From Muribaculum gordoncarteri (lineage in GTDB: Bacteria; Bacteroidota; Bacteroidia; Bacteroidales; Muribaculaceae), in NCBI RefSeq assembly GCF_004803695.1, contig NZ_CP039393.1, positions 620,001-684,000 on the forward strand: a stretch of 64,000 nucleotides of DNA. Direction: 5' to 3'. Under the pieces are notes generated by a model. It worked only from the letters and a program-made list of their open reading frames with translations. It made no database searches and was not told the origin of the DNA. The number at the start of each line of letters is the position of its first letter. The first letter of the stretch is position 1. Below, piece by piece: positions 22,695 to 26,548 of this stretch. The position numbers and the translations under genes were made by a program.

Positions 22695-23501
22695 TTATTC
22701 GTTTACGTATTTGCTGGCAATCTTCATTATATTGTCGGCCTCCTTGCGGTTTTCCGAGTCGGGATAGTTGTTGATGAACGAGTAGTATTCATCGACTACA
22801 TCGCGGAATCGGTCGGCTTTCTTCTCCTCGATACTTTGTGACGCTTCCTGATAGCGTGCTTTCAGTATGAGCATCTCAAGCTCCTCCTTGTACTTGGAGT
22901 AGGGATAGTTCTTTATGGCGTTGCGGGCCACAATCACGGCCGACTCGTAGTTGTTGCCGCCGTAATTGCCGAGATTGTAGTAGAGCTGTGCATTCTGCAG
23001 CTCCTTGAGGGTGAGCTTGTCCTGAAGCTCGAATATCGCGTTTTGTGCCACGGGCACTTTGTCGCTGCGCGGGTAGTAGTCGAGAAACGCCTGAAGCTCC
23101 TCGATGCCTTTTATGGTTTCGCTCTGGTCGAGCTGAGGTTCGGGCGAGTCGAGGTAGTAACCGTAGCCCGAGTAGAAGCGTGCAAGCTCGGCATATTTGC
23201 CTTTGGGGTAGCGGCTGTAGTAGGTGTGGAAATAGAGTCCCGAGTTGTAGTAGTCCTTGTTCTCGTAGTAGCTGAGGGCAAGTAGATAGAGCGATTCCTC
23301 GGCGTTTTTGGTGCCTTTGAGCTGCGTTACGATGTCGGTCAGCACGGTTGTCGCCTGGGTGTAACGCTTCTGCTCGAATGCACGGCGCGCGAAGTCGAGC
23401 TTCTCGTCGGGATTGGTGCTTTTTAATATTCGCTGGTACTCGCCGCATGATGTGAGGGCGAGCATTAGAACGGATAATGTTATATAAATGTATTTACGCA
23501 T
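22695..23501 (-). CDS. bamD: Outer-membrane assembly lipoprotein BamD
   Basis: A 268-residue TPR lipoprotein of the BAM complex. The signal sequence ends in the lipobox LTSC (Cys19), followed by EYQRILKS. TPR-like repeats follow (RRAFEQKRYTQATTVLTDIV; YPYSKYKEELEMLILKARY). The ATG at 23499-23501 is chosen because it opens directly with the signal peptide. Its upstream promoter region is the left partner of the IS target duplication. Confidence 0.93.
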   Translation of the reverse strand: MRKYIYITLSVLMLALTSCGEYQRILKSTNPDEKLDFARRAFEQKRYTQATTVLTDIVTQLKGTKNAEESLYLLALSYYENKDYYNSGLYFHTYYSRYPKGKYAELARFYSGYGYYLDSPEPQLDQSETIKGIEELQAFLDYYPRSDKVPVAQNAIFELQDKLTLKELQNAQLYYNLGNYGGNNYESAVIVARNAIKNYPYSKYKEELEMLILKARYQEASQSIEEKKADRFRDVVDEYYSFINNYPDSENRKEADNIMKIASKYVNE

Positions 23502-23525: not shown

Positions 23526-23533
23526 CAAAGTTA
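23526..23533 (-). promoter_or_regulatory. -7 box of bamD at the very edge of the IS target repeat
   Basis: TAACTTTG on the minus strand is immediately adjacent to the left end of the direct repeat (23534). The upstream part of this promoter, including any -33 element, therefore lies within the repeat copy. Confidence 0.55.
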
Positions 23534-23662
23534 AAAATAAATCGCGACAGGAGCAGAAAAATGTGCGCTTTTTTTGATGAAAAACGCTATTTGAGCTTTT
23601 TTAAGCTACAAAATTAATATAAATAGCCTCCCGTTTCGGCTTTTTTAGTTAAGTTTGCACTC
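23534..23662. repeat. 129-bp target-site duplication, left copy
   Basis: Identical base for base to 25687-25815. It begins AAAATAAATCGCGACAGG and ends GTTTGCACTC. It contains most of the original bamD/PASTA intergenic region, with a plus-strand TAAGTTTG -7 box at 23650-23657 that now points into the element. IS1634 is known for long, variable target duplications. Confidence 0.95.
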
Positions 23663-23708
23663 GGTAGTTTGACAGTTGCATTTTCATGAATCTTTTTTGC
23701 TGGCACGC

Positions 23709-23739
23709 TTGCACGTGTCAAATTTTATTACTATCTTTG
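23709..23739 (+). promoter_or_regulatory. Transposase promoter inside the IS
   Basis: TTG (23709-23711), 20 bases, then TATCTTTG (23732-23739). It is a host-type promoter, and its -7 box overlaps the inner inverted repeat, so transposase binding could repress it. Confidence 0.6.
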
Positions 23740-23776
23740 TAGCACCGTGTAGCAATCAACGGCAGGGCGGCATAAT

Positions 23777-25582
23777 ATGAAGCTGAAAATAACCAAGACA
23801 AAAAAGACTTCCATCCTTTATGTACAGAAGGCATACAGGGACAAGAACGGCAAAAGTACCTCAAGAATCCATGAGCGCCTTGGAACGCTTGAGGAAGTTC
23901 GTCAGAGATGCGGAGACAGAGATCCTGTTGAATGGGCCAGGGGATATATCGCCAGGCTTACGGCACAGGAGAAGGAGGGCCGGCAGGTGATAATATCACG
24001 TCTGTCGCCCACAAAGCTTATTGAAAAAGGCGAGGCTCAGAGTTGCGAGAGCGGATATCTGTTTCTTAAACGGCTGTACCATAAGGTCGGGATGGACAGG
24101 ATATGCGAGGCAATCTCACGTAAACATAAGTTCGACTTCGATTTCAACAAAGTTCTGGAGCTGATGGTCTACGAACGGCTTTTGAGACCGGCTTCAAAAC
24201 TAGGTAATTATCGCAGGAGCGGAAGCTATATCGAGCCTTTTGATATAGAAAAACAGCATATCTACAGGAGTCTGGATATCCTGGACAGACACGGTGAATA
24301 CATCCAGAAGAGACTTTTCCTTAATTCGTCAAAGGTTGTCGAACGGGATACGACCGTCATGTACTATGACTGCACCAACTATTTTTTCGAGAGAGAATCT
24401 GCCGATCCGGACTATGTGACAGACAAAAAAGGGAACGTTCATGAACGTATACGCAAGTACGGAGTCTCCAAGGAACATCGACCGAACCCCATCGTACAGA
24501 TGGGTATGTTCATCGACAACTCCGGCATGCCGGTTGCGATGTGCATCAATCCCGGCAATGCCAACGAACAGACTACCTTGATTCCAACTGAAAAGATTAT
24601 AGTTGAGAAGATGGGGGTCAGCAAGATTGTAGTCTGTACAGACGGAGGTCTCTCTTCTGAAGGCAACCGGTCATATAACTCCACAGCAGAAAGATCATTC
24701 ATAACGGTGCAGTCAATAAAGAAACTGGAGGATAATCTCAGGGACTGGTGTCTGGAACCGACAGGATGGAAACTTGTAAAGTCCGACACGGTACAAAAAG
24801 ACAAGCGGTACCGGGATGCAGACGAGGATGAACTGGAGTTTGACCTGACTGATGCCGATACTGCCCGTTATTACGGAGACCGCACTTTTTATCGCGAGCG
24901 TTGGATTGTCAATGAAAAGACAAAGTTCTCTCAAAGATTGATTGTGACATTTTCATACAAATACCGCGACTACCTCCGATTCCTGCGTCAACGCGAGATT
25001 GACAAGGCTGACAGCAATGCACGTGGAAACAGGACATTGACCAAATCTTATAAGAGCCCTGACAGGTTCCTTTCCGAGACCTACGCCACAGAAGACGGCG
25101 AGGTTGCGGTATTCAGAACCGTCTCCCTGAATCTTGACGCCATATCAGAAGAAGAAAAATATGACGGCTTCTATGCGATATGTACGGATCTGTCTGACAA
25201 TGTGACGAAAATCATCGAACTGAACCATAACCGCTGGGAGTCGGAGGATGCCTTCAGGGTCATCAAGACTGACTTCAAGGGTCGACCCGTCTTCGTCTGG
25301 ACGGCGGAACACATAAGGGCCCACTTCATTGTCTGCTTTATCACACTACTGCTCTTCAGAATAATGGAAAAGGAACTGAACTATAAATACACATCCTCCG
25401 CTATAATTGAGAAACTACGGTCAATGACTATGAACATAGTCAAGGGAGAAGGCTACAAGCCTAACTTCACACGGGATGATCTTACCGATGACCTACATGC
25501 CAAAGCCGGCTTCAGACTCGACACCGAGATTGTTACTCGTCAGAAAATCAAACAGATTATTGCTAATATTAAAAAAGGTTAA
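23777..25582 (+). CDS. IS1634-family transposase
   Basis: A 601-residue DDE transposase of the IS4 superfamily. Acidic residues: D198 in YYDCTNYFFE, D289 in VVCTDGGLSSEGN, and E490 in the NHNRWESEDAFRVIK block, followed by the FVWTAEHIRAHFIVCFITLL segment typical of IS1634 and IS1549-like enzymes. Full length, no frameshift, so probably active. Confidence 0.95.
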   Translation: MKLKITKTKKTSILYVQKAYRDKNGKSTSRIHERLGTLEEVRQRCGDRDPVEWARGYIARLTAQEKEGRQVIISRLSPTKLIEKGEAQSCESGYLFLKRLYHKVGMDRICEAISRKHKFDFDFNKVLELMVYERLLRPASKLGNYRRSGSYIEPFDIEKQHIYRSLDILDRHGEYIQKRLFLNSSKVVERDTTVMYYDCTNYFFERESADPDYVTDKKGNVHERIRKYGVSKEHRPNPIVQMGMFIDNSGMPVAMCINPGNANEQTTLIPTEKIIVEKMGVSKIVVCTDGGLSSEGNRSYNSTAERSFITVQSIKKLEDNLRDWCLEPTGWKLVKSDTVQKDKRYRDADEDELEFDLTDADTARYYGDRTFYRERWIVNEKTKFSQRLIVTFSYKYRDYLRFLRQREIDKADSNARGNRTLTKSYKSPDRFLSETYATEDGEVAVFRTVSLNLDAISEEEKYDGFYAICTDLSDNVTKIIELNHNRWESEDAFRVIKTDFKGRPVFVWTAEHIRAHFIVCFITLLLFRIMEKELNYKYTSSAIIEKLRSMTMNIVKGEGYKPNFTRDDLTDDLHAKAGFRLDTEIVTRQKIKQIIANIKKG

Positions 25583-25617
25583 ATATAGATAACCCCATTC
25601 CAGTGCTACATATATAG

Positions 25618-25657
25618 ACCCTTTTGCACATGGCTTCACGCCAATGTACAAAAGGGT
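25618..25657 (+). terminator. Terminator hairpin at the right end of the IS
   Basis: ACCCTTTTG (25618-25626) pairs with CAAAAGGGT (25649-25657), with a further ACAT/ATGT pairing inside after one mismatch. It follows the transposase stop and would insulate the PASTA gene from transposase read-through. Confidence 0.65.
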
Positions 25658-25686
25658 TTGCTCGTTTTTGGACTGTAAAAGATGGG

Positions 25687-25815
25687 AAAATAAATCGCGA
25701 CAGGAGCAGAAAAATGTGCGCTTTTTTTGATGAAAAACGCTATTTGAGCTTTTTTAAGCTACAAAATTAATATAAATAGCCTCCCGTTTCGGCTTTTTTA
25801 GTTAAGTTTGCACTC
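25687..25815. repeat. 129-bp target-site duplication, right copy
   Basis: Identical to 23534-23662. It ends five bases after the TAAGTTTG -7 box of the PASTA gene (25803-25810), so the downstream gene keeps its complete promoter. Confidence 0.95.
25803..25810 (+). promoter_or_regulatory. -7 box of the PASTA-rluD unit
   Basis: TAAGTTTG, the same box as in the left repeat. Upstream TTTTTAG sequence resembles the promoter at 38832. It drives the PASTA gene, whose likely start is about 90 bases downstream. Confidence 0.55.
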
Positions 25816-25900
25816 TAAACTGACATTCTTGTCGGCCGCTCTTGCATTAATCGCCGGGTCGGTTGACACAACTGGGATTGTCGATAAATTGATTTTACGC

Positions 25901-26548
25901 GTGGAAGACAAAACTGACAAAAAGACTAATAAGCCGGTCGACTTCATAAAAAAGCATCCGATACTCTTCAACCTGTTTTTGATAGTGCTTGTCGGGTGTG
26001 GCATCATCTGGCTTACACTTGTGGCATTGGATGTGTGGACAGGTCACGGCGAATATCGCGTGGTTCCCGACATGAAGGGACTGAGCTACGAGCAGGCCGT
26101 GAAGGCGCTCGACGAAGCCGGGCTTCGTGCCGAGCTTTCCGATTCTATCTATGACTCGTCGACCCGCCCCGGCACGGTGCTTGAGCAGTCGCCCAAGGTC
26201 AATGCCAAGGTAAAGCCCAACCGCACCGTCTATCTCACCATAAATGCCTTTTCACCGAGAATGATTTCGGTGCCGAGCCTCACCGACATGTCGTTGCGGC
26301 AGGCACGTTCAACCCTTGAGGGACTTGGATTTGAGAAGATAAGGGAGCTTTATGTTCCGAGCGAGTACAAGGATTTGGTGCTCGGTGTCAGGTTCAACGG
26401 TATCGAGCTGGATCCGGGAGCACGTGTTCCCGCCTCGGCTTCGCTGACCATTGTTGTGGGGCAGGGTATAACCGAGGAGTCGTCCGACACGATTGTTGAC
26501 ATGGCTGTCGCCGATGATGCTGAGGCCGAAGTGCTCGACCTTGATTGA
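25901..26548 (+). CDS. PASTA-domain membrane protein
   Basis: A protein of about 215 residues: a charged N-terminus, one membrane helix (HPILFNLFLIVLVGCGIIWL), then two extracytoplasmic PASTA domains (YRVVPDMKGLSYEQAVKAL and ISVPSLTDMSLRQARSTL). It resembles PASTA regions of penicillin-binding proteins and kinases but has no kinase. No ATG occurs in the frame upstream of the helix; the GTG at 25901 is the best start, and a longer TTG-started form (25889) is possible. It precedes rluD by 28 bases. Confidence 0.85.
   Translation: MEDKTDKKTNKPVDFIKKHPILFNLFLIVLVGCGIIWLTLVALDVWTGHGEYRVVPDMKGLSYEQAVKALDEAGLRAELSDSIYDSSTRPGTVLEQSPKVNAKVKPNRTVYLTINAFSPRMISVPSLTDMSLRQARSTLEGLGFEKIRELYVPSEYKDLVLGVRFNGIELDPGARVPASASLTIVVGQGITEESSDTIVDMAVADDAEAEVLDLD

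Follow-up and report, generated by a model that had tools for sequence, protein, structure and literature searches.

Right ends of a recently active IS1634-family element appear to be directed to host core promoters that its long target duplications preserve

The 64,000-nucleotide stretch of the Muribaculum gordoncarteri chromosome analysed here (the window) contains an insertion sequence between bamD and a gene for a PASTA-domain protein, and the DNA on its two sides (23534-23662 and 25687-25815) is identical across 129 bp. This locus raises the question of how an insertion sequence comes to be flanked by so long a repeat, and what the repeat means for the genes beside it. In the reading that we prefer, to which we assign a probability of roughly 0.8, this is a recently active element that has its right end steered to a core promoter of the host and its left end joined upstream, so that the duplication keeps the promoter of the gene that is struck.

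Although the flanks are identical over 129 bp, as an earlier note on this DNA had described, the true duplication is 128 bp long (left copy, 23534-23661; right copy, 25687-25814), because the 129th base is the terminal C of the element meeting a C in the target. We call the first base of a duplication, which adjoins the right end, T1 and the last base Tn; here, these are positions 23534 and 23661. The bamD -7 box TAACTTTG (23526-23533, minus strand; CAAAGTTA on the forward strand) abuts T1, and the PASTA-side -7 box TAAGTTTG is found on the plus strand of both the left copy (23650-23657), where it points into the element with Tn just after it, and the right copy (25803-25810). The start of bamD (22695-23501, minus strand; TIGR03302, 91.2 bits) was set at an ATG, the open reading frame being listed from a TTG at 23528. 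The listed TTG start of the PASTA-domain gene (25808-26548, plus strand; PF03793) overlaps the -7 box, so translation probably begins further downstream. The -7 boxes of both neighbors are thus retained, as the earlier note had claimed.

To look for the empty site, 12 same-genus loci around the PASTA gene were compared. Seven of these (L175 and L178-L183), all from other strains, carry the bamD-PASTA intergenic region once and without the element, and by eye both -7 boxes, including the one that abuts T1 in the window, are in place in each. The remaining loci have a different upstream neighborhood (L174, L176, L177, and L184) or were not judgeable (L185). The 128-bp sequence itself is poorly conserved across the empty sites, and the transposase was absent from 13 of 13 same-genus genomes at a threshold of 1e-80. 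A duplication older than the insertion, considered as the source of the repeat, is disfavored by these single-copy relatives.

The element occupies 23662-25686 (2025 bp, plus strand), with ends common to 19 full copies; in the alignment of these copies, its first base is C (CGGTAGTTTG...) and it finishes with ...AAGATGGG, all 19 copies having in common this first C and the final GATGGG. The left terminal repeat (CGGTAGTTTGACAG, 23662-23675, plus strand) fits the pattern C-----YT that is given for IS1634-family termini in PMC2266710 (Table 1), and this pattern is present at both termini (CGGTAGTT and CCCATCTT), the right terminal repeat (25673-25686, minus strand; reverse complement CCCATCTTTTACAG) being the promoter-facing end. 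The 601-aa transposase (23777-25582, plus strand) scores 316 bits against the curated IS1634 model NF033559 (cut-off 100) and 25.4 bits against PF01609 (cut-off 23). Residues D198, D289, and E490 are invariant among 17 aligned sequences and, judged by eye, are the predicted DDE catalytic triad. An incomplete YREK motif, described as a trait of the IS1634 family (PMC2266710), is represented by R486, E490, and K497, which are invariant in the same 17 sequences; by eye, the window transposase has N in place of the Y. From the NF033559 score, the DDE residues, and the C-----YT termini, we conclude that the element is a member of the IS1634 family, in agreement with the earlier assignment. A -7-like box borne by the element, TATCTTTG (23732-23739, plus strand), was seen by eye 5' of the transposase gene, and an inverted repeat with a 14-bp stem followed by T-rich DNA (25618-25657, plus strand) is likely the transposase terminator 3' of it. 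Inspection by eye of the C terminus of the window transposase revealed no clear copy of the sliding-clamp motif reported for the IS1634 family, and a search of PDB sequences with this protein returned a single weak match (E 0.13).

The genome (3.43 Mb in 3 contigs) contains 19 full and 2 truncated copies of the element. The 18 insertions that remain when an assembly duplicate is excluded all have perfect duplications, of 58, 90, 106, 124, 128, 199, 204, 219, and 240 bp in the shorter half and 272, 388, 396, 398, 408, 409, 489, 509, and 511 bp in the longer half, and the long variable duplication proposed from the window thus holds for the other copies. The excluded copy, at 12-15 kb of its contig, probably reflects overlapping contig ends: the DNA to its left is identical to that left of the 592-kb copy (at least 4740 bp), and the DNA to its right is identical to that right of the 3.29-Mb copy (at least 4950 bp). 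The opening 15 kb of contig C1 (L021) are probably an unresolved contig-end overlap or a chimera. There are 17 distinct right junctions because two of the 18 insertions have one right-hand target position in common. These two form a tandem pair (L032, C1 2166997-2171555) with a single right-end target base, which survives insertion because the second repeat (509 bp) starts exactly at the right end of the first copy. The repeat lengths gave no consistent signal of a 10-bp helical period (R of 0.46 at 10.0 bp for the 18 in this genome, none for 37 others). Copies on the two strands, looked at for replication direction, are intermingled along the contig. By eye, two further multi-copy DDE elements in this genome have short flanking repeats and junctions without a -7 box.

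The primary sigma factor of Bacteroidetes has been described as reading TAnnTTTG at -7 and TTTG near -33 (PMC7366714). We scored 18 Bacteroidales sites, 17 from the window genome and 1 from another genome of the order (G410), for the reverse complement of the -7 box, CAAANNTA, starting between -12 and +2 of T1. A perfect box was present at 14 of the 18 sites (0.7% of control windows) and a match of at least 5/6 at 16 (7.9% of control windows), while the opposite orientation gave 0/18 perfect matches and 1/18 at the lower threshold. At the 16 sites with a box, TTTG was best at a spacing of exactly 20 bp, about 3 sd over the mean of 52 distances. The junction position is spread from 0 to -11 around the box, and the two sites that lack one at the junction are the 5' end of tRNA-His, where the box begins 13 bp inside the duplication, and the region upstream of the C-terminal processing peptidase gene. 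An extra site, in Muribaculaceae Isolate-036, has a 99.8% identical element, an 80-bp repeat, and CAAATATA at -11; this copy (L162) is interrupted by ∼9.6 kb that includes, by eye, a tyrosine recombinase-like ORF. When genomes of the order were sampled, a threshold of 1e-25 gave matches in 2 of 391 others (G410, where the repeat is long, and G264, where the match is weak and partial); sampling of the phylum gave matches in 0 of 394 other genomes.

At all 17 sites in this genome, inspection shows the left-hand gene to be transcribed away from the element (p 8e-6 at even odds). The automatic caller had found a leftward left ORF at 13 of 16 sites with an ORF within 300 bp; its three misses were a nested copy, a spurious ORF over the methylmalonyl-CoA epimerase gene, and a site with tRNA-His in between. 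Scored against ORFs no shorter than 100 aa with a margin of 30 bp, T1 was intergenic at 17/17 sites here and at 40/42 Firmicutes sites, the other two of which look intergenic on inspection; under a looser ORF rule, one site here lies 25 bp within a 142-aa ORF. Tn was intergenic at 6/17 sites here and 23/42 Firmicutes sites and fell within reading frames at 11/17 here. Since T1 is intergenic whereas Tn is often within ORFs, the right end is mainly the guided end.

These positions bear on the earlier view that a wide cut lets the element fit into tight intergenic gaps, which is too simple: at all 17 sites the right end is intergenic and lies at the start of a gene transcribed away from it, and the left end is intergenic at 6. 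Nor does a wide stagger alone explain the harmlessness of the insertions, which is accounted for by anchoring at the core promoter. Both promoters are copied in the window because its site is a divergent promoter pair, as had been noted; this feature is particular to the site, since a gene on the right side is rightward at 4/17 sites. By the same count, a host promoter that points into the transposase gene, as the left copy of TAAGTTTG does here, is not a general property. The struck genes, named by use of NCBIfam and a tRNA search, are those for bamD, pdxA, the C-terminal processing peptidase, an acyltransferase, L28, an NlpC/P60-like protein, L25, a glycogen-synthase-like protein, a thioredoxin-like protein (by eye), methylmalonyl-CoA epimerase, S16, an RpoD-like sigma factor, SppA, YicC, Rho, thrS, and tRNA-His. 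Several of these genes are generally essential.

A scan of one genome per species yielded 73 related loci, chiefly from Lachnospiraceae and other Firmicutes. Of 72 scored rows (21 from this genome and 51 from others), 65 were kept; the others had a right junction with <60 bp of flank or with a right flank that was repeated. Repeats of at least 13 bp are present in 38 of the 51 rows from other genomes, part of the remainder being at contig edges. The Firmicutes discovery set comprises 39 distinct right junctions and includes one Tenericutes genome (L065); phage, plasmid, Mycoplasmopsis, and Isolate-036 sites are excluded from the Firmicutes and Bacteroidales counts. In this set, T1-T6 matched ATTATA, the complement of TATAAT, at 5/6 or better at 20/39 junctions, compared with 1.7% for offsets used as controls. 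Conservation is highest at positions -7, -11, and -12, as expected of a -10 box. The right junction in Firmicutes thus borders TATAAT on its 3' side, and a -35 signal is present at a spacing of ∼17 bp. The left gene is transcribed away at 28 of the 33 sites where an ORF lies no more than 300 bp to the left. Repeat lengths range from 35 to 807 bp, with one further repeat of 1532 bp in a tandem array.

As an independent test of this signature, the end pattern was fixed beforehand and used to find elements in genomes of the family Lachnospiraceae, 27 of 200 of which matched, one having already been used. In 16 validation junctions, none scored before, ATTATA was exact at 10 and matched at 5/6 or better at 13 (control, 1.5%). 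Among 190 windows, a -35-like match with spacers of 16-18 came second in the discovery set (39 sites) and again in the validation set (13 sites), and an overlapping window with spacers of 17-19 ranked first or tied. Loci with an uncertain right end (L204 and L219), rows with a short flank (such as L188, L194, and L203), and loci in which no ends were found (L192, L205, and L227-L229) stayed out of the validation; one locus that was included (L187) is the same as L047, which had been fetched earlier and was unscored then. Six of the 16 validation copies have long repeats, 5 are at contig edges, and 5 are flanked by 470 bp or more on each side and show no repeat of at least 13 bp, so some copies are rearranged or lie outside the repeat rule.

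The relatives include groups in which the signature differs. In a very distant fourth subtype (25% identity; 7 F1710 junctions, scored apart), ATTATA is shifted one base inward and 4/7 junctions are within one mismatch. The Firmicutes subgroup E1851 (7 sites) mostly departs from the promoter rule: -10 matches are mostly weak, and a leftward left ORF was found at 1 site by the caller and at 2, including mraZ, on inspection. Nine Mycoplasmopsis copies were read, 6 of them with repeats of 43-400 bp; at T1 of these 6, ATTATA was exact at 0 and a 5/6 match at 2 (control, 2.7%), an ambiguous -10 signal.

Several individual loci were recorded alongside these sets. In Lachnoanaerobaculum sp. OBRC5-5 (L154 and L156), the element and a 1532-bp unit are in tandem, and a 3615-bp contig resembles a collapsed unit, which suggests amplification via recombination between long repeats. 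A Ligilactobacillus salivarius plasmid (L165, 13900-15950) has a related element 5' of the erm(C) leader, with a repeat of ∼13 bp and its junction at ATTATA. Two related subtypes are nested in Lachnospiraceae UW_TS_LCO4_1 (L082/L149), where one right-end target is reused, as in the tandem pair described above. Lachnoanaerobaculum gingivalis (G426) contains four divergent IS1634-like subtypes with long repeats, 22 matches in total. Viral contigs gave 9 pattern matches and no relative.

The repeats, ends, promoter signature, strand, and gene orientation described above are features read directly at the junctions, and they suggest an order of events. The right end would be placed at the -10/-7 box or immediately next to it, meeting the template strand of a gene that is read outward from the element, and the left end would be joined 58-511 bp (in Firmicutes, 35-807 bp) further upstream; copying of the DNA between the two joints would then produce the long variable direct repeat. 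Over a distance equal to the repeat, the left copy would restore the DNA that precedes the -10 box of the struck gene, and the right copy would leave the upstream neighbor whole. Because the duplication extends upstream of the promoter and the left end is nearly unspecific, the struck gene would keep its core promoter; the shortest repeats, 58 bp here and 35 bp across the scored sets, leave room for both -35 and -10.

We infer that the transposase acts on promoter DNA that RNA polymerase has opened or is holding. The second joint may be made on unwound upstream DNA, or the freed 3' end may prime synthesis that then jumps to the left end of the element. A more specific proposal, to which we give slightly less than even odds, is that the transposase docks on a promoter already opened by RNA polymerase, in which case the target sequence would be dictated by the host sigma factor instead of by the transposase and would be TAnnTTTG in Bacteroidota and TATAAT in Firmicutes. 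If this polymerase reading is true, each insertion in Firmicutes would give the element an antisense promoter, since the right copy retains the -10 box.

One alternative keeps the promoter rule and changes the second step: the right end would join before the left, and synthesis by the host, starting at the freed 3' end, would jump to the left end without joining by the transposase. This alternative is plausible, at somewhat less than even odds. At 37 of 59 sites (8/17 here, 24/36 in the Firmicutes set, and 5/6 in the validation set; p ∼2e-11 against an assumed 0.22), Tn is followed by a C, which is also the base with which the element begins; this fits a jump, but the C may be a simple target preference. 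Likewise, a composite copy (L033 4741-7755, C1 592240-595254), in which the first 990 bp of the element are directly joined to a complete element and the whole is flanked by one perfect 106-bp repeat, has an internal break that again precedes a C; this structure is also explicable by nested insertion and recombination, however, and the exactness of the left ends speaks against such a jump.

A rather doubtful alternative, although one of some weight, is that the transposase itself recognizes an AT-rich, -10-like hexamer without RNA polymerase, promoters being struck because they contain such hexamers and because insertions elsewhere are purged. It is consistent with the sharp position of the junction hexamer in Firmicutes, with the AT-richness of T1-T3 in both sets, and with several E1851 sites at AT-rich starts that have no leftward gene; in addition, the three Bacteroidota transposases group weakly (93/64), so that a change in intrinsic specificity coinciding with the change of host is possible. 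It does not predict a correctly spaced -35 signal in two sets and a -33 signal in Bacteroidales, and under it the near-uniform orientation of the struck genes is unexpected, given that gaps between convergent genes should be harmless too. In addition, the target sequence differs between phyla in a manner that tracks the host promoter consensus. Random insertion, in which selection retains intergenic copies and long repeats only make them tolerable (a view near that of the earlier note), is consistent with T1 being intergenic throughout this genome and with the essentiality of several struck genes, but it predicts neither the base-level alignment with the -10/-7 box and the strand bias nor the left ends inside reading frames, and we consider it very improbable.

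The directional promoter rule is a testable model with one guided end and one free end. Promoter-anchored insertion may explain the unusually long duplications and how a struck gene, even an essential one, can go on functioning, and it offers a reason for copies to accumulate beside essential genes such as that for the RpoD-like sigma factor. If the proposal is true, a bacterial DDE element lands on core promoters yet leaves them working, in effect a natural promoter tagger; promoter copying would let it sit at essential, active genes without loss, and recombination between the long repeats could later remove it exactly.

Long repeats are known in this family, and their promoter targeting is apparently unreported: we found no report of promoter targeting by IS1634-family elements in the literature searched, most subscription journals being outside its scope. 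Insertion at promoters has a likeness, as an analogy for a possible mechanism, in yeast Ty1, Ty3, and Tf1, for which it is tied to host transcription or DNA-binding proteins, but these use eukaryotic integrases and, in the parts of PMC5371812 consulted, are not described as making a long promoter duplication. In Escherichia coli, IS5 insertion at operon control regions is similarly tied to easily opened, superhelically destabilized DNA; the sections of PMC5493358 that we drew on differ in describing neither alignment with a -10 box nor a long duplication. ISGka5, ISPfe2, and Acidiphilium IS1634-1 have the same transposase family but 6-bp flanking repeats (PMC8024623, PMC3281130, and PMC4549789, the last of which calls the 6-bp words inverted repeats), and an IS1634-family copy on a Rhodoferax plasmid likewise has a 6-bp repeat. 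Target duplications in the family are usually 5-6 bp, with IS1634 and IS1549 as stated exceptions (PMC2266710), so that 5-6 bp is a frequent rather than a defining trait of the family; the window element, with 58-511 bp in 18/18 insertions, does not have it. IS1634 of Mycoplasma mycoides and IS1549 of Mycobacterium smegmatis share their transposase family with the window element and have long variable direct repeats of 8-514 bp, on record since 1998-1999 and without a model as of the 2008 review; promoter anchoring is unmentioned for them in the portions of that review consulted (PMC2266710). With its long variable direct repeats, and with those of its relatives in 38 of 51 rows, the window element fits the long-repeat group formed by IS1634 and IS1549.
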